From the NCBI RefSeq assembly GCF_018063565.1, contig NZ_JAGPBB010000022.1, positions 1 through 46,364 on the forward strand: a stretch of DNA of 46,364 bases, written 5' to 3'. This DNA is from Rhodoferax sp. Its GTDB lineage: Bacteria; Pseudomonadota; Gammaproteobacteria; Burkholderiales; Burkholderiaceae_C. The notes beneath the pieces were generated by a model. That model saw only the letters and a program-made list of their open reading frames with translations. It had not been told where the DNA came from and ran no database searches. Below are positions 2,161 through 30,301 of the stretch, one piece after another. The position numbers and the translations under genes are program-made. Positions within the stretch are counted from its first letter, which is position 1. Every line of letters starts with the position of its first letter.

Positions 2161-3092
2161 GCTGTACGCCAGAAATGACGATTGCCCAGGCCGGTGGCCT
2201 GCATGCCTGGCTGATGTCGGAGCACCCGGCCTCGCGCCGGCAGGCAGCGCTGGGCCGGGCGTATGGTGCGTGGCGCACTTTTGCGCGCAACCGCTTGGCC
2301 ATGGCTGGTTTGCTCATCGTTGTGTTGCTGGTCGGGGTGGCGGTATTTGCGGATGTGCTGGCGCCTTTTTCACCGTTCCAGGGTGATTTGCGCACCACCC
2401 GATTGCTGGCTCCCTCTGGTGTGCACTGGTTTGGCACGGATGATCAGGGACGTGACATCTTGTCGCGGCTGATCTACGGCTCGCGCATTACCTTGTTTGT
2501 CGTGGTGCTGGTGGCGGTGCTGGCGGCGCCCATTGGCCTGCTGGTTGGCACGGTCGCGGGCTACGCTGGGGGTTGGGTGGATGCCGCGCTGATGCGCATC
2601 ACCGACATTTTCCTGGCCTTTCCACGGCTGATTCTGGCGCTGGCCTTTGTGGCGGCACTCGGCCCAGGCATTGAAAATGCGGTGATTGCCATCGCCATCA
2701 CGTCCTGGCCTGCCTATGCGCGTCTGGCACGTGCCGAGACGCTGACGATACGCCAGACCGACTACATTGCCGCAGTCAAACTGATCGGTGCCTCTCCCTG
2801 GCGCATTGTGTTTCGGCATGTGATGCCGTTGTGTGTGTCCTCCGTCATTGTGCGCGTCACGCTTGACATGGCGGGCATCATTCTGACCGCTGCTGGCTTG
2901 GGTTTTCTGGGTCTGGGCGCGCAACCCCCCAGTCCGGAGTGGGGCGCCATGATTGCCAATGGTCGTCACTATGTACTGGACCAGTGGTGGGTGGCCGCCG
3001 CACCCGGTGCAGCGATCTTTTTGATCAGTCTGGCGTTTAACCTGCTGGGCGATGGCCTGCGCGATGCGCTCGACCCCAAGGGAGTGAAATGA
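2157..3092 (+). CDS. ABC transporter permease, DppC/OppC type
   Basis: The 311-residue partner permease carries a cytoplasmic N-terminal extension, a first helix near residues 50-70 and the DppC-type loop HWFGTDDQGRDILSRLIYG. The EAA motif is around QTDYIAAVKLIGASPWRIVFRHV, and the conserved GLGFLGLGAQPPSPEWG lies near the C-terminus. It should form the heterodimeric membrane channel with the upstream permease. The start overlaps the upstream stop (ATGA) and the stop overlaps the next ATPase start (ATGA), giving a tight operon. Confidence 0.92.
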   Translation: MSCTPEMTIAQAGGLHAWLMSEHPASRRQAALGRAYGAWRTFARNRLAMAGLLIVVLLVGVAVFADVLAPFSPFQGDLRTTRLLAPSGVHWFGTDDQGRDILSRLIYGSRITLFVVVLVAVLAAPIGLLVGTVAGYAGGWVDAALMRITDIFLAFPRLILALAFVAALGPGIENAVIAIAITSWPAYARLARAETLTIRQTDYIAAVKLIGASPWRIVFRHVMPLCVSSVIVRVTLDMAGIILTAAGLGFLGLGAQPPSPEWGAMIANGRHYVLDQWWVAAAPGAAIFLISLAFNLLGDGLRDALDPKGVK

Positions 3093-3946
3093 ACCAGACC
3101 GCGCCGTCGCAGGAGCCGATGCTGGTCGTGGATGACCTGCGTGTGTCTTTCCCAAGCCGTGATGGGGGTTGGGTGGAGGCGGTGCGCGGTGTCTCGTTCA
3201 CCTTGGGGCGTGAGCGGCTTGGCATTGTGGGGGAGTCGGGCTCGGGCAAGTCGCAAACCGGCCGCGCCATCTTGGGCTTGACCGCCCCTGAAGGGCGGGT
3301 CAGTGCCAAGCGCCTGGCCTTTAACGGCGTGGACCTGCTCAACTGCTCGCCCAAACAGCGCCGCGAGCTTCGTGGCGGACGCATCGCCATGGTGCTGCAA
3401 GATCCCAAGTTTTCGCTCAACCCGGTGATGACCATTGGTCGCCAGATCATGGAAACCCTGCAGGCGCACAGCCGCGTGTCGACTGCCCAGGCACGGGCAC
3501 AGGCGCTGGCCGCTCTGGCGTCGGTGCAGATCGATGACCCCGAGCGCGTCTTCAAACTTTATCCACATGAGGTTTCGGGTGGCATGGGTCAGCGCGCCAT
3601 GATTGCGATGATGTTGATTGCCAAGCCTGACTTGTTGATCGCCGATGAACCGACCTCGGCGCTCGATGTCACCGTGCAATTGCAGGTGTTGCAGATTTTG
3701 GATGCTCTGGTGCAGCAGCGCGGCATGGGCCTGATTTTTGTCTCGCACGACCTGCGCCTGGTGTCTACCTTTTGCGACCGCATTCTGGTGATGTACGCTG
3801 GCAAAGTGGTCGAGGAATTACCTTCGGGCAACCTGGCACACGCGCGACACCCCTACACCCAGGGCCTGCTGAACTGCCTGCCCAAGCTGGGTGACGACCG
3901 CCACCCCTTACCCACGCTGAACCGGCAGCTGGAGTGGGCGCAATGA
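3089..3946 (+). CDS. ABC transporter ATP-binding protein, DppD/OppD type
   Basis: The 285-residue ATPase has Walker A GESGSGKSQTGRA, Q-loop VLQDPKFSLNP, signature VSGGMGQRAMIA, Walker B LLIADEPTSALD and the switch histidine in FVSHDLR. The C-terminal ARHPYTQGLL segment is typical of the oligopeptide/dipeptide subfamily. The linker (VSGGMGQ rather than LSGGQRQ) is the usual D-type variant. It overlaps both neighbours by ATGA and should pair with the following F-type ATPase to power the transporter. Confidence 0.92.
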   Translation: MNQTAPSQEPMLVVDDLRVSFPSRDGGWVEAVRGVSFTLGRERLGIVGESGSGKSQTGRAILGLTAPEGRVSAKRLAFNGVDLLNCSPKQRRELRGGRIAMVLQDPKFSLNPVMTIGRQIMETLQAHSRVSTAQARAQALAALASVQIDDPERVFKLYPHEVSGGMGQRAMIAMMLIAKPDLLIADEPTSALDVTVQLQVLQILDALVQQRGMGLIFVSHDLRLVSTFCDRILVMYAGKVVEELPSGNLAHARHPYTQGLLNCLPKLGDDRHPLPTLNRQLEWAQ

Positions 3947-4725
3947 GTCAGATGCGCGCCGGCTTGAATGCGGTGGGGCTGCAGGTGAAAAACCTGCGCG
4001 TTCGTTTTGGTGAGTTTGTGGCGGTGGCGGACAGCTCTTTTGAGGTGTTGCCTGGTGAGAGTTTTGGCATCGTCGGTGAGTCGGGTTCGGGCAAGTCGAC
4101 CGTGCTGCGGGCCATTTGCGGACTGACCCCCATGGCCGGTGCGGTCAAACTGCTGGGTGATCCCGGTGCAGTTTTGCCCGCGCCGGGAAGCAAGGCGTTT
4201 CGCCGTCTGGTGCAAATGGTATTTCAAGACCCCTATGGCTCACTGCATCCGCGCCACACGGTGGACCGCATTCTGGCCGAGCCGCTGGCGATCCACGGGC
4301 TGGACGACGAGCAGGGTCGTATCGAGCGCGCTCTGGACGAGGTGGGTTTGGGTAGCGGTTTCCGGTTTCGTTACCCGCATCAGCTCTCAGGCGGGCAGCG
4401 CCAGCGCATTGCGGTGGCGCGCGCGCTGATTCTGGAGCCGCAGATTCTGCTGCTCGACGAGCCCACCTCGGCACTGGATGCTTCGGTGCAGGCTGAAGTG
4501 CTGAATTTGCTCGAGGATTTGCGACGCCAGCGGGGTTTGACCTTCATCATGGTCAGCCATGACCTGGCGGTGGTGACACACCTGTGTGAGCGCTTGATGG
4601 TGATGCAGCGCGGCAAGACCGTTGAATTGCTGGACTCGTCGGATCTGGCGGCACACCGCGTCAGCGACCCCTACACACAGAAGCTGATGGAAGCCTCTGC
4701 GGGCTTTCAACGCGACCGTTGCTGA
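3943..4725 (+). CDS. ABC transporter ATP-binding protein, DppF/OppF type
   Basis: The 260-residue ATPase has Walker A GESGSGKSTVLRA, Q-loop MVFQDPYGSLHPRHTV, signature LSGGQRQRIAVARAL, Walker B ILLLDEPTSALD and switch His in MVSHDLAVV. An in-frame GTG exists at 3934. The ATG at 3943 is preferred because it makes the same ATGA overlap with the upstream stop as the other genes of this operon. It is the last gene of the transporter operon and ends 12 bp before the NRDE gene. Confidence 0.92.
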   Translation: MSQMRAGLNAVGLQVKNLRVRFGEFVAVADSSFEVLPGESFGIVGESGSGKSTVLRAICGLTPMAGAVKLLGDPGAVLPAPGSKAFRRLVQMVFQDPYGSLHPRHTVDRILAEPLAIHGLDDEQGRIERALDEVGLGSGFRFRYPHQLSGGQRQRIAVARALILEPQILLLDEPTSALDASVQAEVLNLLEDLRRQRGLTFIMVSHDLAVVTHLCERLMVMQRGKTVELLDSSDLAAHRVSDPYTQKLMEASAGFQRDRC

Positions 4726-4737
4726 GTCGGTTGTGCC

Positions 4738-5508
4738 ATGTGCCTGATCGCCTGGAACTGGCAGCCAGACAGCCCGTGCCCTTTGCTCCTGATCGCCAAC
4801 CGGGACGAGTTTTATGCCCGTCCAACCGCTGCCTTGCACCTCTGGGCGGATGCACCGTTGGTGGCCGGTCGGGATTTGCAGGCAGGCGGAACCTGGCTTG
4901 GCGCGAGCCTGAGTGGGCGTGTGGCGGCGCTGACCAATCACCGCGATCCCGCCATGACGCGGTCCGATGCTCCGTCGCGGGGTGAGTTGGTCAGCGCTTT
5001 CTTGCAGGGCGAGATGGGCGCGCACGACTATCTGACGCAGCTCAGCGATCGGGCGCCCCGCTACAACCCTTTCAATTTGCTGGTGTTTGATGGGCGCGAA
5101 TGCTTAGGCTTGCAAAGTCACCCGGCGCGGGTAATGCGTTTTATGCCCGGTGTGGGTGCGGTGTCCAACGCCCGTTTTCATACCCCATGGCCCAAGCTGG
5201 TGGCGATCCGGGACGGCCTTCGTGAGTTGCTGGAACGCGGGGGCGAACGTGATGCTGATTTGATGGCCCTGCTGCAAGACCGCCAGGTTGCCGCTGACGC
5301 TGATCTTCCGGTCACCGGCATTGCGCCCGCGCTGGAACGCGTGCTGTCGGCCCGCTTCATTGCCACACCCGACTACGGTACCCGTGCCTGCAGTGTGCTG
5401 CGTCTGGAAGGTGCGCAGATCAGCTTTCTGGAGCACAGTTTTGATGCACGGGGTGCGACCGGAGAGGCCCTTCAGCGTTGGTCAATTGCTACCAGAAGAG
5501 TATCTTGA
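4738..5508 (+). CDS. NRDE (TANGO2-like) family protein
   Basis: The 256-residue protein begins MCLIAWNWQ, with the family-typical Cys2, and carries the diagnostic LIANRDEFYARPTAAL motif near residues 21-36. AGGTWLGASLSGRVAALTNHR follows. Members are soluble proteins linked to heme or redox handling and to eukaryotic TANGO2; the biochemical role is unsettled. It starts 12 bp after the ABC ATPase stop and may be read through from that operon without a functional link. The last residues look poorly conserved. Confidence 0.85.
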   Translation: MCLIAWNWQPDSPCPLLLIANRDEFYARPTAALHLWADAPLVAGRDLQAGGTWLGASLSGRVAALTNHRDPAMTRSDAPSRGELVSAFLQGEMGAHDYLTQLSDRAPRYNPFNLLVFDGRECLGLQSHPARVMRFMPGVGAVSNARFHTPWPKLVAIRDGLRELLERGGERDADLMALLQDRQVAADADLPVTGIAPALERVLSARFIATPDYGTRACSVLRLEGAQISFLEHSFDARGATGEALQRWSIATRRVS

Positions 5509-5557
5509 AAATCAATTGGCCATTTGGCTGAAGGCGAAAAATTGTGAAAATTCCGGG

Positions 5558-6142
5558 TCAGACCAATTGCAGAAATTCCAGTACTTCACCGAGGTGCTGT
5601 TCGTAGTCACTCAAGGCGTGGTCACCGGCGTCCAGCAATTTGATCCTGGCAGCGCTGTAGTGCTGGTGCATTTCACGCCAGTCCAGCACCTCGTCGCCTT
5701 TGGCGATCACAGCGAAATAGCGCTCGGGGCGACTGATGTGATCGAGTTCCATGGCGTGAAGTTCGTCGATGTAATGGGGCTCCAGCACGAAGTGGGTATC
5801 GGGTTCGTGCCACAGGGTTTGTTTTCCGACATGTGGCGCGAGATCACGGGCCGGGCGAACCGCCGGGTTCAGAAGCACCGCCCTGCAGCCCAGTTGCTCG
5901 GCCAGCCAGGTCGCATAGAAACCACCCAACGAAGAACCCACAATGGCCGTCGTTCGGCGGGGCCAATGGGTGATGGCGTCCATCACGTCCACCATGGCTT
6001 GACCCGGTGACGCCGCCAGCATGGGGCAGTGCCAGATGGCTGAGGGATGGCGCTGGCGTACTGCCGCCGCCGTCATTCGCGCTTTGTTGGATGCCGGCGA
6101 AGACAGAAAACCGTGCAGGTAGAGAAGGTGGGTGGTGAGCAT
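5558..6142 (-). CDS. yqiA: YqiA-type alpha/beta-hydrolase esterase
   Basis: From the ATG at 6142 the protein is 194 residues, the normal length of YqiA-like esterases. The start gives MLTTHLLYLHGFLSSPAS, with the family LYLHGF strand at the N-terminus; an in-frame ATG 21 bp upstream would add seven unconserved residues. Nucleophile elbow GSSLGG places Ser71. The acid is probably in AKGDEVLDW and the His in DAGDHALSDYE. It is predicted to be a cytoplasmic carboxylesterase acting on small acyl esters. It is convergent with the NRDE gene. Confidence 0.88.
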   Translation of the reverse strand: MLTTHLLYLHGFLSSPASNKARMTAAAVRQRHPSAIWHCPMLAASPGQAMVDVMDAITHWPRRTTAIVGSSLGGFYATWLAEQLGCRAVLLNPAVRPARDLAPHVGKQTLWHEPDTHFVLEPHYIDELHAMELDHISRPERYFAVIAKGDEVLDWREMHQHYSAARIKLLDAGDHALSDYEQHLGEVLEFLQLV

Positions 6143-23947: not shown

Positions 23948-25744
23948 CTACGTTCGACCCACACGATCCACATGCACCTGCAGCCACCACTCCAGCAGCG
24001 CAAGGTGCCACAGTTTGCTCCCGTTGATGCGGGTGAAGTGCTCAGGCGCCTCGGGTGCTGCCAGCAGCCTGTCTACATAGTCGCGCTGGTACAGGCCGCG
24101 CGCCAGGCAGGCAGGCGACATCAGAATGTCACGCATCATCTCCAGGAATGGCCCGCGCACATAGCGCAGCGCCGGCACCGGGAAATAGCCTTTGGGCCGA
24201 TCGATCACCGAGTCCGGGATCAGGCCCCTCGAAATCGCCTTCAGCGGGAACTTGCCACCTTCCTTGAGTTTGAGTTCCGGCGGCATTTTGGCTGCCAGCT
24301 CGACCAGCTCATGGTCGAGAAACGGGGTGCGTACTTCCAGCGCCCAGGCCATCGGCATGTTGTCAACCCGTTTCACCGGGTCGTCCACAATCAGCGTGGT
24401 GGCGTCAAAGCGCCACACCTGATCCAGAAATGTATCAGCGGCAGGCTCAGACAGTCTGCTTGCTACCAACTCAGAAGTGACATCCGCAATCTGGTAGGGC
24501 GCTGTGACCATTTTTAGGTACTCATCATGGTCCCGGTCAAAATAGTGCGGGGCAAAACGCTGCAGGGGTGTGCCGCTGCTGGCGTCCATCTTGGGGTACC
24601 AGAAGTAGCCGCCAAACACTTCGTCAGCGCCCTGGCCCGACATCACCACCTTGACCTCTTTGGACACCCGCTCGCCCAGCAGGTAAAAGGCAATCACATC
24701 GTGGCTGACCATGGGTTCGGTCATTTGTGCCACCGCTTCCGGCAGGCGCGCCATCACCTCGCTGTTGGGAATGCTGAATTTGTGGTGGCGGGTTTTGAAA
24801 TGCGCCACCACCTGGTCGGAATACTCAAACTCGTCGGCTTTTTCGGCGCCGCCACCCAGGTCTTCAAAGCCAATCGAGAACGTACGCAGGTCTTTCACAT
24901 GTTCGGCCAGCAGACCCACCAGCAGGCTCGAATCGAGCCCGCCCGAGAGCAGCACGCCTACCGGCACATCGGCGGCGAGCAGCCGGCGCTCGACACTCCG
25001 GTCCAGGTAGGCGCGGGTTTGTTCCAGCCATTCCTGCTCGGACGGCGCAACCTCGGGCCGGGTGGCGTCGAGCGACCAGTAGCGCTGCTGCTCGACGCTG
25101 CCGTCGGGGTTAAATACCATGGTGTGCGCAGGCGGGAACTTGCGCACGCCTTTCAAGATGGTACGCGGCGCCGGTACCACCGTGTGCAGGGTGAAATGGT
25201 GATGCAGTGCCACCGGGTCGAGTGTGGTGTCAACCCCTCCGGCGGCCAGCAGCGCAGGCAGGCTGGAGGCAAACCGCAGGCGGTGGCAGTCCTGGGTGAG
25301 ATACAGCGGTTTGATGCCAAAGCGGTCGCGCGCCAAAAACAGCTGGCTGCTGCGCTGGTCCCAGATGGCAAAGGCAAACATGCCCTTGAAACGCGTCACG
25401 CACTGCTGGCCCCAGGCGTGATAGGCCTTGAGGATGACTTCGCTGTCACCGTTAGAAAAAAACTGGTACCCCTGCGACTGCAGTTCCGTGCGCAGTTCGC
25501 GGTAGTTGTAAAGGGTGCCATTGAATACCAGGGTGAGCTGCAGCGTGGCGTCGACCATGGGTTGGTGCGCGTGGCTGGAGAGGTCGATGATCGACAGGCG
25601 CCGGTGGCCGAAAGCCAGTGGACCGTCGCTGTAGGTACCCGCATGGTCCGGCCCCCGGCGCGCCAATTGGTCCGACATGTGGCCAATCGCCGCCATGTCA
25701 GGGGATTGGCCGTCAAAGCGCAGTTCGCCACAAATGCCACACAT
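23948..25744 (-). CDS. Asparagine-synthetase-type amidotransferase, N-acetylglutaminylglutamine amidotransferase-like
   Basis: The 598-residue protein has an N-terminal class II glutaminase domain starting MCGICGELRFDG, with Cys2 as nucleophile and RRLSIIDLS, FNGTLYNYRELR and GDSEVILKAY. The ATP-pyrophosphatase domain has SGGLDSS at residues 267-273. YSDQVVAHFKTRHHKF, EPMVSHDVIAFYLL and SGQGADEVFGGYFWYP match my memory of the family that makes the terminal amide of N-acetylglutaminylglutamine amide (AsnO/TIGR03104), rather than plain AsnB. It uses Gln and ATP to amidate a carboxylate. The start overlaps the ATP-grasp gene's stop (ATG at 25744), so the two act together. The usual GNAT-ATP-grasp partner is not here. 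Confidence 0.8.
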   Translation of the reverse strand: MCGICGELRFDGQSPDMAAIGHMSDQLARRGPDHAGTYSDGPLAFGHRRLSIIDLSSHAHQPMVDATLQLTLVFNGTLYNYRELRTELQSQGYQFFSNGDSEVILKAYHAWGQQCVTRFKGMFAFAIWDQRSSQLFLARDRFGIKPLYLTQDCHRLRFASSLPALLAAGGVDTTLDPVALHHHFTLHTVVPAPRTILKGVRKFPPAHTMVFNPDGSVEQQRYWSLDATRPEVAPSEQEWLEQTRAYLDRSVERRLLAADVPVGVLLSGGLDSSLLVGLLAEHVKDLRTFSIGFEDLGGGAEKADEFEYSDQVVAHFKTRHHKFSIPNSEVMARLPEAVAQMTEPMVSHDVIAFYLLGERVSKEVKVVMSGQGADEVFGGYFWYPKMDASSGTPLQRFAPHYFDRDHDEYLKMVTAPYQIADVTSELVASRLSEPAADTFLDQVWRFDATTLIVDDPVKRVDNMPMAWALEVRTPFLDHELVELAAKMPPELKLKEGGKFPLKAISRGLIPDSVIDRPKGYFPVPALRYVRGPFLEMMRDILMSPACLARGLYQRDYVDRLLAAPEAPEHFTRINGSKLWHLALLEWWLQVHVDRVGRT

Positions 25745-27054
25745 CAGATCGTTCCTTGGTCAGGCACCACGATGACCGGCGCAAAGCCGCCGCCCTGGGT
25801 GCGAAAGTTGGTGGTCTGTCCTGCGTACATACGCGCGGCCAGCAGTTGCACCTGGCCACCATAGGTGTAGGCGCGAATGTCAAACTTGAGGTCAGTCAGC
25901 ACGCCATCCACTTCGATCATGCGCGCAGCAGGTGGCACCAGGGCCTGGGCCACAAAATCGCCCACCAGGATATCGCCCCAGACACGGCGTGTCAGCTTGT
26001 CACCCCGGTACGCTGCCTTGGCACCGTACCCCGCCACCGGCTTGAAAAACAGGTCGCGCCGTTGTGACCACAGCGCATCCGCCTGGTCATGGGTAACCAG
26101 CCGGGTTCGGGGTACCGTGCGGCCTAGCAATAGACGGTCTGCGCTGCTGGCGCCCCAGGTTTGCAGAAGCTCGTCCTGGCTGAGTGCCACCAGATTGCGC
26201 TTGTCGGCCAGCAGGGCGTGGGCGCGCGGGTGCGGTGTCAGCACCACGGCACCGGTTTCATAGGCCTGTCGCAAGGGCCGGTTCTCCGGTTCTTCCAGGT
26301 AGAAATCAGTGAGACGGTTGTAGATCATGTCTACCGGTGTGTTCTGGTACTGCAGCTGGTCGTCGATCCAGCTCAACTCGCTGGGGTCGGCAATATGGGC
26401 GGTCACGCCGTGTGAGGCAAACAATTGTTGAAACAGCGTAAATTCCGGTGCCAGATACTGCGCCGTCGGGTTGCGGTCCACAATCAGCACGTTGCGCCAA
26501 GGGGAACCGCCACGCTGCAACTGCCATTCGTTGGCAAACATCGCAAAAAGGGCGTGATGAAGGCTCTCGTGTTGAAGGTTCGATTGAAAAGCCAGGTTCA
26601 GCTCGTCGCAACAGGCTTCCTGCGCGCGTGCCAACGCTGCATTGAGGAGCAGGCCGCCCGCATTGGTGTTGATCTCGATCAGTTGTGGGCCGAGGGCGCT
26701 GAGGTGAAAGTCATAACCCATGCAGGCCGCAAGCGGCCCCCAGCGGTGTTGCGCGACGGCATCGGCCCGGTCCAGCGCCTGCGCCTGGAAACCGGGTAAG
26801 GACGCGACCCGCTCGATGGCAGCCACAGCGGCCTCGATCTGCCCCTGCACGCGGTCGGACATGAACACCACGCTGCTTGAAAACAGGTTGGGGCGGGTGT
26901 GGCTGATGTCGTCCAGCAAGCCCTTCAGGCTGGGGTCTGCCTCCAGTTGCTCCCGCAGGCGTTGTGTGTTGAGGGTGCGGCAATAGCAGTCTCGGTTCAG
27001 CGCTTCAGCAGAACTGGGGCGCAAGGCAGGTTCGGGGAAGTGGGCAGTGGTCAT
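25744..27054 (-). CDS. Circularly permuted ATP-grasp ligase-like protein, function unknown
   Basis: From ATG 27054 the protein has 436 residues (MTTAHFPEPALRPSS). Upstream in-frame codons overlap the divergent leader and look unconserved. The ATP-grasp elements are present in rotated order. The terminal block GYDFHLSALGPQLIEINTNAGG-like element (Asp115, Glu127, Asn129) is in the N-terminal third. VDMIYNRLTDFYLE and LLADKRNLVAL are central. The ATP-binding FFKPVAGYGAK (Lys338) and the FDIRAY...AARMYAGQTTNFR element (Asp392, Arg394, Arg408, Asn416) close the protein, where RimK-like enzymes have DIR...R...N before their EVN motif. Such enzymes join a carboxylate to an amine. No GNAT domain is present. 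It is translationally coupled to the amidotransferase. Confidence 0.7.
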   Translation of the reverse strand: MTTAHFPEPALRPSSAEALNRDCYCRTLNTQRLREQLEADPSLKGLLDDISHTRPNLFSSSVVFMSDRVQGQIEAAVAAIERVASLPGFQAQALDRADAVAQHRWGPLAACMGYDFHLSALGPQLIEINTNAGGLLLNAALARAQEACCDELNLAFQSNLQHESLHHALFAMFANEWQLQRGGSPWRNVLIVDRNPTAQYLAPEFTLFQQLFASHGVTAHIADPSELSWIDDQLQYQNTPVDMIYNRLTDFYLEEPENRPLRQAYETGAVVLTPHPRAHALLADKRNLVALSQDELLQTWGASSADRLLLGRTVPRTRLVTHDQADALWSQRRDLFFKPVAGYGAKAAYRGDKLTRRVWGDILVGDFVAQALVPPAARMIEVDGVLTDLKFDIRAYTYGGQVQLLAARMYAGQTTNFRTQGGGFAPVIVVPDQGTI

Positions 27055-27802: not shown

Positions 27803-29224
27803 TCAGGCAAAACTGTCGCCCATCAAGGTGGTGAACCAGGTGTTCATCTGCCTGAAGTTGTCGCTGCTGATGGTCGCCGCCTCGGTGGCTTTGGCACCCA
27901 CCGTGTTGCCACCATTGGCGGCCACCACCATTTTGCGATTGACGCCATCATATTGGTAGACCGTGGATAGCCATGACGCCGTGCTGGCGGTGATGGGTGA
28001 ATAGCAGGCGGAATTCGCCACCGGTGCCGGATCGGGTTGCTGCCCGCCGAGCAGGCGGATGATGGCGTCGGCGCAAATTTTGGCTTCCTGGTTGGCCACG
28101 TGCCCGGCTTTGGGCATGGCGCAACTGGCGGCGTCGCCAATCACGTGAATGCCGGGCGCGGTGGTGGATTCGTAGCTCAGCACATTCACCACACACCAGC
28201 GCCCATCCGGCTTGCCGCTGGCATCTTGGCTGTTGTTCAGCCCGGCATTGTGCAGCCAGCCACCGGTGCTTGCACCGCGTGCGCGTTGCGGTGCGATCGG
28301 GTTGACGACCTGCGCCTGAATCGACTGTGCGGTCTGCAATCCGTCTTTGTAAGTCACCACCTTCGTGTCGGGGTTGACGGTGATGCCGCTGATACCCGGG
28401 CGATAGTCAATCACCCCCTTGTGCAGCGTGCCAAAGGCGTAGCTGAAATTGTCAACTTCGGCCTGAATGCTGGCGTTTTCATCCAGAATGATCACTTTGG
28501 AGCTGGTGCCGCTGCCAAAGCGCGTTTTCAGGAAATCAGCCACCAGGCAAGCCCGCTCATAAGGGCCGGGTGGGCAGCGGTAGGGCGCCTTGGGGATGGT
28601 CATGACAAAAACCCCGCCATTGACCATGCCAGCAATCTGGCTGGCCAGCAAGGTCGTTTGGGTACCCGCGTGCCAGGCATGAGGGGTCTGGTTGTCGTAG
28701 TGGCTTTGACTCAGGCCGTAAGCGTTGTCAAACTCGATGCCGGGTGCCAGTATCAGTCGGTCGTAGGCCAAGACGCTGCCATCCGATAGTGTGACGGTCT
28801 TGGACGCCTTGTCGATCGACTGCAACGCAGCGTGTTTGAGCGTGACGCCGTATTTGCTGCTCAGATTGGCATACGAATAGGCCAGGCTTGCCACATTGCG
28901 CGAGCCATTGAGCACCAGGTTGCTCATGATGTTGGAGGTGTAACTGGCATTGGGCTCAACCAGCGTCACGGCGATGCCGCTGCCACCCCAAAGCCGCAAG
29001 TATTTGGCCACGGTGGCACCGGCCATACCTCCACCGACGACCACAACGCGGGCACTGAGCCCGGTCGTGGCCGCTGTCACGGTGGTACTGCCCGAACTGC
29101 TACCGCCAGAATCGTTGTCGTCATCGGTGTGGCCAAGCACCGGCACCAGACCGGCACCGAGTGTGGCCATGGCCGTGAGCAACCAGCGGCGACGATTGGG
29201 CAAAGTTTTAAGGTTGTGCTGCAT
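27803..29224 (-). CDS. fccB: Sulfide dehydrogenase flavoprotein (flavocytochrome c, FccB/SoxF type)
   Basis: The 473-residue periplasmic FAD protein has a Tat signal (NRRRWLLTAMATLGAG) and then an unusual Asp/Ser/Gly/Thr-rich linker (residues 31-55). FAD-binding VVVGGGMAGATVAKYLR is near residue 60. FCSD-type motifs are TSNIMSNLVLNG, PYRCPPGPYERACLVADFL and VIGDAASCAMPKAGHVANQEAK; the Cys in YRC and in ASC are the likely redox disulfide. It oxidises sulfide and passes electrons to the cytochrome subunit. It starts 15 bp after the cytochrome gene on the same strand. Confidence 0.9.
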   Translation of the reverse strand: MQHNLKTLPNRRRWLLTAMATLGAGLVPVLGHTDDDNDSGGSSSGSTTVTAATTGLSARVVVVGGGMAGATVAKYLRLWGGSGIAVTLVEPNASYTSNIMSNLVLNGSRNVASLAYSYANLSSKYGVTLKHAALQSIDKASKTVTLSDGSVLAYDRLILAPGIEFDNAYGLSQSHYDNQTPHAWHAGTQTTLLASQIAGMVNGGVFVMTIPKAPYRCPPGPYERACLVADFLKTRFGSGTSSKVIILDENASIQAEVDNFSYAFGTLHKGVIDYRPGISGITVNPDTKVVTYKDGLQTAQSIQAQVVNPIAPQRARGASTGGWLHNAGLNNSQDASGKPDGRWCVVNVLSYESTTAPGIHVIGDAASCAMPKAGHVANQEAKICADAIIRLLGGQQPDPAPVANSACYSPITASTASWLSTVYQYDGVNRKMVVAANGGNTVGAKATEAATISSDNFRQMNTWFTTLMGDSFA

Positions 29225-29239
29225 GTTCAGGTTCCTGAT

Positions 29240-29653
29240 TTATTGGTTGAGGTAGGCGGCAATGGCATCAATCTGCGCGACGGTATAACCCTGCACATGC
29301 GCCGCCATGATGTTGCTGTTGGCGGCTTTGGTCAAAAATTCTTTGATCTCACCTGCACTTTCACCCCGGATGTTGTCAAAACCACCGGTCCCTTCAGTGC
29401 CGTGGCACTGGAAACAGTTGGATGCCAGCAGTCGGCCGCTGGTATTGCCGACCTGAACCGTCTGGGTGGGAGAGCCCGGTACGACGGGCGTGGTGGGTGT
29501 CGTCACCACAGGGGTTGGCGCAGTGGCCGAGTTTTCGTCGCTGGTGGTGGTGCTTCCACCGCCACCACCACAGGCAGTCAGCAGGGCAGCGGTGAGGGCC
29601 AGGATCGACAGGCGGCAATGAGATGCTCGGCGTGGGGTTGCATCGGGATTCAT
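29240..29653 (-). CDS. fccA: Cytochrome c subunit of flavocytochrome c sulfide dehydrogenase, lipoprotein
   Basis: From ATG 29653 the protein has 137 residues. A type II signal ends in the lipobox LLTAC with Cys28, so it is membrane-anchored. A Gly5 tract and a Ser/Thr/Pro stalk (about residues 29-65) follow, then one c-type heme site CFQCH (Cys80, Cys83, His84), with Met116 in SNIMAAHVQGY as candidate sixth ligand. The final QIDAIAAYLNQ is the usual class I cytochrome end. It is directly followed by the FAD subunit, so it serves as its electron acceptor. A lipid anchor and stalk are not usual for FccA. Confidence 0.85.
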   Translation of the reverse strand: MNPDATPRRASHCRLSILALTAALLTACGGGGGSTTTSDENSATAPTPVVTTPTTPVVPGSPTQTVQVGNTSGRLLASNCFQCHGTEGTGGFDNIRGESAGEIKEFLTKAANSNIMAAHVQGYTVAQIDAIAAYLNQ

Positions 29654-29682
29654 GAGGCTCCTTAAGAATGGTCGGGTCGGTT

Positions 29683-29701
29683 GACGGCATGACTTGCCGT
29701 C
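29683..29701. promoter_or_regulatory. Perfect 7-bp inverted repeat upstream of fccA
   Basis: GACGGCA (29683-29689) and TGCCGTC (29695-29701) flank a 5-bp centre. It lies 30 bp upstream of the fccA start in the 168-bp divergent leader shared with the phosphatase gene. It could be an operator or a leader hairpin; no T-run follows on either strand. Confidence 0.4.
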
Positions 29702-29732
29702 GGTGCACAGGACTGAATTCTTGCGATCTGTG

Positions 29733-29749
29733 CTTAAGAAGGACTTAAG
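29733..29749. promoter_or_regulatory. Two CTTAAG direct repeats spaced 11 bp
   Basis: CTTAAGA occurs at 29733 and 29744, one helical turn apart; a third CTTAAG lies at 29661, just upstream of fccA. The 11-bp spacing is typical of tandem sites for OmpR/PhoB-type regulators, which is inference. Either divergent gene could be the target. Confidence 0.35.
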
Positions 29750-29821
29750 AGCGCGCTCGGCGGCTCTTCTTTCAAGGCTGGCATAGTGCCGATAACTTTC
29801 AAGACACAACAAGGAAGCGCC

Positions 29822-30301
29822 ATGACTTATTCGGTACTGTTTGTCTGCATGGGCAATATCTGTCGTAGCCCGACTGCAGAAGGTGTTTTTGCCCACCGGG
29901 CGCAGCAGCACGGGCTGGCTGACCGGGTGCGCGTTGATTCGGCGGGTACCCACAACTACCATCCCGACAGCCCGCCTGATGCACGTTCACAGGTGCATGC
30001 CAGGCAACGCGGGTACGATTTATCGGCGTTGCGCGCCCGCCAGATTGCTGACGACGACTTCGTTTCCTTCGATCTCATTATGGCGATGGACTGGGACAAT
30101 CTGGCTTTGTTGCAGGCCGCCTGCCCACCACAGCACCAGCACAAGCTGCGCCGTCTGACCGAGTTCTGTCAGCGGCACGACAGCCCGGTGATACCCGACC
30201 CGTACTACGGTGGACACCAGGGCTTTGAGCAGGTACTGGATCTGGTGGAAGATGCCTGTGATGGTCTGCTGGCGCACGCGCGTGGCCAATTGAGAGTTTG
30301 A
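29822..30301 (+). CDS. Low-molecular-weight protein tyrosine phosphatase
   Basis: The 159-residue protein starts at ATG 29822. The P-loop VCMGNICRSP gives nucleophile Cys9 and Arg15, and the general acid Asp is in PDPYYGG. SAGTHNYHPDSPPDARS and LIMAMDWDNLALL are family-typical. It is a cytosolic phosphatase, often tied to exopolysaccharide tyrosine-kinase control or general dephosphorylation. No tyrosine kinase gene is near. Residues upstream of the chosen ATG are not conserved. Confidence 0.9.
   Translation: MTYSVLFVCMGNICRSPTAEGVFAHRAQQHGLADRVRVDSAGTHNYHPDSPPDARSQVHARQRGYDLSALRARQIADDDFVSFDLIMAMDWDNLALLQAACPPQHQHKLRRLTEFCQRHDSPVIPDPYYGGHQGFEQVLDLVEDACDGLLAHARGQLRV

Follow-up and report, generated by a model that had tools for sequence, protein, structure and literature searches.

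A glutathione-synthetase-like ligase coupled to an AsnB-type amidotransferase in Rhodoferax, a possible route to an amidated thiol peptide

We analysed two adjacent genes in the 46,364-nucleotide contig NZ_JAGPBB010000022.1 of Rhodoferax sp. (assembly GCF_018063565.1; the whole of this stretch is called the window below). They encode an ATP-grasp ligase (P0001) and an AsnB-type amidotransferase (P0002). The genes are real and coupled, and we propose, with a probability of about 0.38, that they form a two-step module of ligase and amidase for an amidated glutathione-like thiol peptide used in metal or metalloid handling. We place the pair in a route of ligase plus AsnB-type amidase; our confidence is moderate as to the substrate class and low as to the exact product.

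From the coupling, the predicted fold, the amidotransferase group and the gene neighbourhoods, all read from sequence, we infer which reactions would take place in vivo, on what substrate and to what purpose. The fold and motifs of the ligase suggest that, in a first step, it would use ATP to convert a small carboxylate into its acyl phosphate and join it to an amino acid, the substrate most likely being a glutathione-type thiol peptide such as gamma-glutamylcysteine. In a second step, as expected from its family, the amidotransferase would take ammonia from glutamine and activate the C-terminal carboxylate of the product with ATP to give an amide. Read most economically, the result would be an amidated glutathione-like thiol for metals or metalloids, separate from bulk glutathione. 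Metal or metalloid handling is proposed as its role because many relatives of the ligase adjoin cation, arsenic or copper exporters. The two genes and their junction are as follows.

25744..27054, minus strand: ligase gene P0001 (436 amino acids), intact reading frame, a predicted circularly permuted ATP-grasp protein resembling eukaryotic glutathione synthetases, without Pfam, NCBIfam or PHROGs match.
23948..25744, minus strand: amidotransferase gene P0002 (598 amino acids), intact reading frame, AsnB-type, of the TIGR03104 superfamily, grouping with members that lack a partner for N-acetylglutaminylglutamine amide (NAGGN) synthesis.
25742..25746, minus strand: TGATG stop/start junction with one base common to both genes, its spacing the same in 29/31 loci.

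The first-pass annotation had described the two genes as overlapping by ATGA; the actual junction is TGATG, with a single base in common. Among the 31 loci with both genes that were measured, only two depart from it, L071 with a two-base gap and L045 with disturbed frames (these and all locus counts below, for neighbourhoods, junctions and glutaredoxins, include close relatives and are not independent). At L045, the ligase and an interrupted amidotransferase lie in one frame (about 3031-5938), which may reflect an assembly error or decay. The amidotransferase scored over the TIGR03104 cut-off in 14 of the 36 genomes of the Rhodoferax genus (the window's own included), and one broken copy fell just below it; in all 15 of these genomes the ligase adjoins the amidotransferase on the same contig. 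Conservation of the one-base junction is an argument that the two proteins act together.

The ligase family is without a curated model in NCBIfam, Pfam or PHROGs. Searching PDB with P0001 by phmmer gave a single chance-level match and by sequence profile none; four of the 29 family members have weak matches to CP_ATPgrasp_2 (PF14403), at E 0.00018 in the best case, and the window protein itself has none. An AlphaFold2 model was built from the 29 sequences (mean pLDDT 85.8). Foldseek comparison of this model with PDB placed the human, yeast, plant and soybean (homo)glutathione synthetases at the top, with chain-wide matches (E 4e-15, probability 1.00), followed at lower rank by the pseudodipeptide ligase Cp1B, Mfla_0391, glutathionylspermidine synthetase and YgiC/YjfC. 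Across the 50 listed matches the TM-score is about 0.6 at best and identity is 9-15%, so the ligase would be only remotely related to glutathione synthetases.

In glutathione synthetases an E-x-N motif forms the Mg/acyl-phosphate site, and the KPxxGxG stretch is the ATP-binding loop, which is expected to come after the E-x-N motif in a permuted ATP-grasp. Both motifs occur in this order in P0001. Together with the fold match, they bear out the suggestion in the first-pass annotation of a permuted ATP-grasp ligase, and we regard the predicted fold, a circularly permuted ATP-grasp of the glutathione synthetase superfamily, as settled. That the ligase has no acetyltransferase part is likewise consistent with this predicted fold and with our NCBIfam and Pfam searches, in which no such match appeared. 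Conservation was read in 75 aligned rows.

26653..26676, minus strand: ligase motif E127-I-N129-T-N-A-G-G134, with E127 and N129 in 75/75 rows, the proposed Mg/acyl-phosphate site.
26023..26043, minus strand: ligase motif K338-P-x-x-G-x-G344, with K338, P339 and G344 near-invariant, the proposed ATP-binding loop.
25780..25821, minus strand: ligase motif G412-QTTNFRT-x-GGGFA425, a near-invariant C-terminal stretch with a putative role in the ligase.
26980..26988, minus strand: ligase Cys23-x-Cys25, with C23 in 65/75 rows and C25 in 71/75.
26608..26613, minus strand: ligase Cys148-Cys149, in 72/75 and 71/75 rows, respectively.

In the model, the short strands 26-28 and 145-147 could bring the C23/C25 and C148/C149 cysteines together.

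P0002 matches TIGR03104 over its whole length with 985.5 bits (cut-off 570.1), in line with the resemblance in motif and length to the NAGGN enzyme that was noticed at first pass. Two Pfam domains were found.

25244..25606, minus strand: glutaminase (GATase_7) domain of the amidotransferase.
23978..25018, minus strand: Asn_synthase domain of the amidotransferase, with the SGGLDS loop.

The nucleophile of the glutaminase is presumably Cys2. A GNAT-ATP-grasp gene elsewhere in the genome, which the first-pass annotation had named as the finding that would speak against its proposal, did not turn up: the best TIGR03103 match in the window's genome, which is 92.8% complete, reaches 22.6 bits against a cut-off of 569, with all eight candidates scored. 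Of 369 genomes in the class, 165 have a TIGR03104 protein over cut-off and 13 a TIGR03103 protein, or 14 if matches at E up to 1e-150 are counted; the class-wide searches for these models, the ligase and AsnRS scored no more than the 3 or 4 top first-look candidates of each genome (3 for TIGR03104 and TIGR03103). The TIGR03104 model lumps two groups, and matching it is not enough to indicate NAGGN. L106, in a genome from the same order, contains a true NAGGN operon, and three genomes (G073, G215 and G416) each carry one NAGGN-type and one partnerless TIGR03104 protein, consistent with two functions.

The identity of P0002 is 61-73% with 34 partnerless amidotransferases and 49-58% with the 15 encoded next to TIGR03103; it drops to 33-34% for two further AsnB-like proteins and to 27% for E. 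coli AsnB. A 63-row tree groups all 15 NAGGN proteins in a single clade (support 100) that excludes P0002. The 11 ligase-linked proteins form another clade (99), placed among the partnerless rows and joined there with two partnerless proteins from the same order (100); the nearest partnerless relatives of P0002 are L103 and L105. What defines the partnerless amidotransferases as a group is gene context: the tree, with its distant outgroup and open deeper branching, does not show them as one clade. At 15 columns that separate the NAGGN and partnerless groups, the ligase-linked proteins follow the partnerless members at 13 and the NAGGN members at 2. Membership of the pair in the NAGGN pathway was rejected, with no TIGR03103 partner found over cut-off and the amidotransferase outside the NAGGN clade. 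By sequence the amidotransferase group is a known one, but its name is probably wrong. At L103 (3614-9994), in the same order, the amidotransferase occurs without the ligase and lies between genes that resemble, by eye, GGDEF on one side and DapD-like and aminotransferase genes on the other.

Of 60 near-relative genomes, counting the window's own, 27 have the ligase, and the 36 genomes of the genus account for 25 of these; the genome of R. antarcticus (L038) holds both genes of the pair. In the class the ligase was detected in 17 of 369 genomes, three of the matches being weak (E 2e-6 to 3e-4). It is also contained in a metagenome-assembled record labelled Bordetella parapertussis (L065), a label that may be a misassignment. 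Neighbourhoods were read with a purpose-made gene caller at 70 ligase loci, leaving out the fragment L108 and four loci where the caller did not recover the ligase (L041, L071, L082 and L151); L056 and L153, apparently the same stretch, were both counted, and L037 was scored as lacking the amidotransferase only because its contig ends inside that gene. A cation diffusion facilitator (CDF) lies at most 350 bases upstream of the ligase on the same strand, or overlaps it, at 20/70 loci. Genes for Acr3, ArsA, ArsC-like or ArsR-type proteins are near the ligase at 18/70, or 23/70 when a SaoE-like permease is added. None of these cation-exporter or ars genes was found at 44 loci of ligase-less amidotransferases (34 partnerless and 10 NAGGN), controls that come from other lineages and are unmatched, and in which the gene caller left the amidotransferase outside its cluster at 4/34 partnerless and 2/10 NAGGN loci. 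Representative neighbours scored over their NCBIfam cut-offs for CDF (256 bits), Acr3 (397), ArsA (908), ArsJ (617) and the ArsJ-linked GAPDH (580), and the ArsC-like and SaoE-like representatives fell below theirs. At individual loci, the ArsA-cluster gene ends 10 bases before the ligase (L072), the ligase is followed by the ArsJ-linked GAPDH and ArsJ (L073), and a copper-type P-ATPase ends 3 bases before the ligase (L147). In the literature on ATP-grasp enzymes in arsenic or metal contexts, the ligase family was not met as an ars gene among the matches listed.

The partnerless relatives of P0002 point to thiols by another path. A Grx4-type monothiol glutaredoxin was detected in 25/34 partnerless loci, directly downstream of the amidotransferase in 20 of the 30 with resolved gene calls, and in 0/15 NAGGN loci. 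At L160 (5979-8200) and 19 similar loci, the partnerless amidotransferase is followed by the Grx4-type glutaredoxin, often with sodB and genes that by eye resemble argD and argF nearby.

According to excerpts of the published work, glutathione amide is the major thiol of Allochromatium vinosum (PMC6336425) and was undetected in this species in a later study (PMC4213376), and its reductase is marked by Glu21 replacing Arg21 (PMC8877833). With catalytic copper, glutathione amide is reported to oxidise sevenfold slower than glutathione (PMC6336425, likewise in excerpt), which offers a chemical reason for the amide in a metal setting. No gene for the amidating step is named in the excerpts of the literature found on this thiol, among the matches listed. 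We identified reductases with TIGR01421 and checked column 21 on the solved glutathione amide reductase 2r9z, which is also the best PDB match of the reductases from three tested partnerless genomes. Among 57 genomes with a partnerless enzyme (54 of the class and 3 of the order), a reductase was found in 42, and 39 of these have Glu21. Where no TIGR03104 protein is present, 2 of 22 genomes have the residue (47 were tested and 23 gave a reductase locus, one being dropped for a gap at the column; Fisher 2e-11 for 39/42 vs 2/22); with only a NAGGN-type TIGR03104 protein, 0 of 8 do. The genomes in this comparison are mostly from different families. On a tree of 64 of the 80 fetched reductases, in which NAGGN genomes were counted as lacking the partnerless enzyme and the second reductase of G092 was left out, Glu21 is missing within the Glu21 clade in 3 of 5 rows without a partnerless enzyme vs 2 of 42 with one (Fisher 0.006).

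These observations make it possible, though doubtful, that the partnerless TIGR03104 group, found in roughly 150 of the 369 gammaproteobacterial genomes, is the amidating enzyme of glutathione amide, a thiol that would then be widespread beyond purple sulfur bacteria, and that in Rhodoferax-like bacteria this enzyme has been coupled to a new glutathione-synthetase-like ligase family to give a new amidated metal-binding thiol.

Several results weigh against the proposed module, among them the unmatched nature of the control loci mentioned above. No metal or arsenic gene lies beside the window pair itself; none labelled as such was seen in 10 of the 14 more distant ligase loci (L107, L109, L140-L150 and L152), and the P-ATPase at L075 is of the magnesium type. 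Of the 25 genus genomes with the ligase, 10 have it without the amidotransferase, so the amide cap would be an option, not a need. The Grx4-type glutaredoxin of the partnerless loci is found at 0/74 ligase loci. A reductase at E up to 1e-84 was detected in only 4 of 12 genus genomes with ligase and amidotransferase that were tested, and all four have Arg21 (one of them, when checked, proved to be of the TIGR01424 type), so glutathione amide itself is not supported in the genus. In the window's genome, none of the 18 candidates scored, out of 22, matched as a reductase at E up to 1e-84, and none was found in the partnerless genomes G049, G055 and G059 of the same order. As for the reductase comparison, most of the Glu21 reductases belong to a single clade, the two traits change six times each on the reductase tree, and three independent pairs on supported branches gave on average 1.8 in the same and 0.0 in the opposite direction, which is not significant. 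The link between the partnerless amidotransferase and Glu21 appears to run largely through shared ancestry and is suggestive, not proven.

Some of this evidence would fit another division of labour, in which the amidotransferase converts bulk glutathione to glutathione amide, as suggested above for its partnerless relatives, while the ligase has its own part in metal stress and shares no more than an operon with it. P0002 does group with the partnerless members, and it is these that carry the glutaredoxin and Glu21 links, while the ligase is often alone. We nevertheless consider this account rather unlikely: the conserved one-base junction argues that the two enzymes act together, the reductases found in the genus have Arg21, and no Grx4-type glutaredoxin occurs at any of the ligase loci surveyed.

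It is unlikely that P0002 is a plain asparagine synthetase for free asparagine with an unrelated ligase beside it. The protein does pass the TIGR01536 asparagine synthase cut-off (440 bits vs 267.1), and the two other TIGR03104 matches of the genome are very weak, so P0002 may be its sole AsnB-type enzyme. A phylogenetic place in plain AsnB was the second finding that the first-pass annotation had named as speaking against its proposal; here the amidotransferase tree does not tell whether the partnerless members make asparagine. Against this stand the low identity to E. coli AsnB, the conserved coupling to the ligase and the distribution of asparaginyl-tRNA synthetase (AsnRS, TIGR00457). No AsnRS over cut-off was found in the 15 genus genomes with the amidotransferase, including that of the window, and thus charging of tRNA with free asparagine is not the reason to keep the enzyme there. 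Across the class, 54 genomes have AsnRS over cut-off, 11 of the 165 with TIGR03104 and 43 of the 204 without.

The product seems equally unlikely to be a non-thiol compound, whether an amidated peptide natural product or a metallophore. Excerpts of the literature do offer precedents for each half of such a pathway: Cp1B, whose fold the ligase shares, joins a dicarboxylic acid to an amino acid to give pseudodipeptides (PMC12568646), and AsnB-like enzymes amidate peptide C termini (PMC13060819). No other biosynthetic gene, however, recurs as close to the pair as the cation exporter, a weak objection given that most neighbour clusters carry no identification.

The suggestion of the first-pass annotation, a NAGGN-like solute in which another ligase would supply the dipeptide to be amidated, is very unlikely, for although P0002 and the NAGGN amidotransferase have their superfamily in common and a ligase-plus-amidotransferase logic would serve both, P0002 lies outside the NAGGN clade, is of the partnerless type at 13/15 separating columns, and the neighbours in relatives are metal-related, not osmotic. 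Of that suggestion, the part that the pair ligates and amidates another dipeptide-like substrate is in keeping with the tight coupling and the position outside NAGGN. Its compatible-solute role finds no such footing, since relatives of the ligase adjoin cation, arsenic and, at some loci, copper export genes, and the partnerless relatives of the amidotransferase come with glutaredoxin and reductases of the glutathione amide type. With no neighbour in its favour, an osmolyte role was set aside.

In the window, the pair is bordered on its downstream side by a PAS-GGDEF protein gene and on its upstream side by a divergent redoxin-domain gene. No M42 peptidase was seen among these neighbours, in agreement with the earlier remark that the locus has no peptidase. 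Beyond the redoxin-domain gene, the region 27803-29962 encodes a flavocytochrome c sulfide dehydrogenase-like flavoprotein and, adjoining it at 29240-29962, a small protein without Pfam match in which a CxxCH haem-type motif was recognised by eye.

If these proposals for the pair and for the partnerless group are correct, the N-acetylglutaminylglutamine amidotransferase family would be misnamed in most of the genomes that carry it, the amidating step of glutathione amide would gain a candidate enzyme, and arsenic and metal resistance neighbourhoods would gain a ligase family that has no model in the libraries searched.

Among known systems, the NAGGN pathway (AsnO, TIGR03104, and Ngg, TIGR03103; PA3459-PA3461, as described in an excerpt of PMC8070244) is like the window pair in the superfamily and length of its amidotransferase and in the glutaminase and synthetase domains; the window pair differs in having no GNAT-ATP-grasp protein over cut-off, no M42 peptidase seen and an amidotransferase outside the NAGGN clade. 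In the glutathione amide system of purple sulfur bacteria (2r9z) the comparison runs through the reductase: genomes with partnerless amidotransferases mostly have Glu21 reductases, whereas the four found in the window's genus have Arg21. As to ars clusters, the window pair has no ars neighbour, unlike relatives of the ligase that adjoin ArsA, Acr3 or ArsJ genes. CP_ATPgrasp_2 (PF14403) touches the ligase family only through the weak matches of 4/29 members, the window ligase giving none. A further likeness is to the eukaryotic-type glutathione synthetases and glutathionylspermidine synthetase (PDB 8fbz, 3kal and 2io8), with which the ligase appears to share a permuted ATP-grasp over the whole chain and the order of E-x-N before KPxxGxG, and from which it is set apart by a TM-score of about 0.6 at best, 9-15% identity among the 50 listed matches, no sequence-profile relation and its own conserved CxC and CC cysteines.

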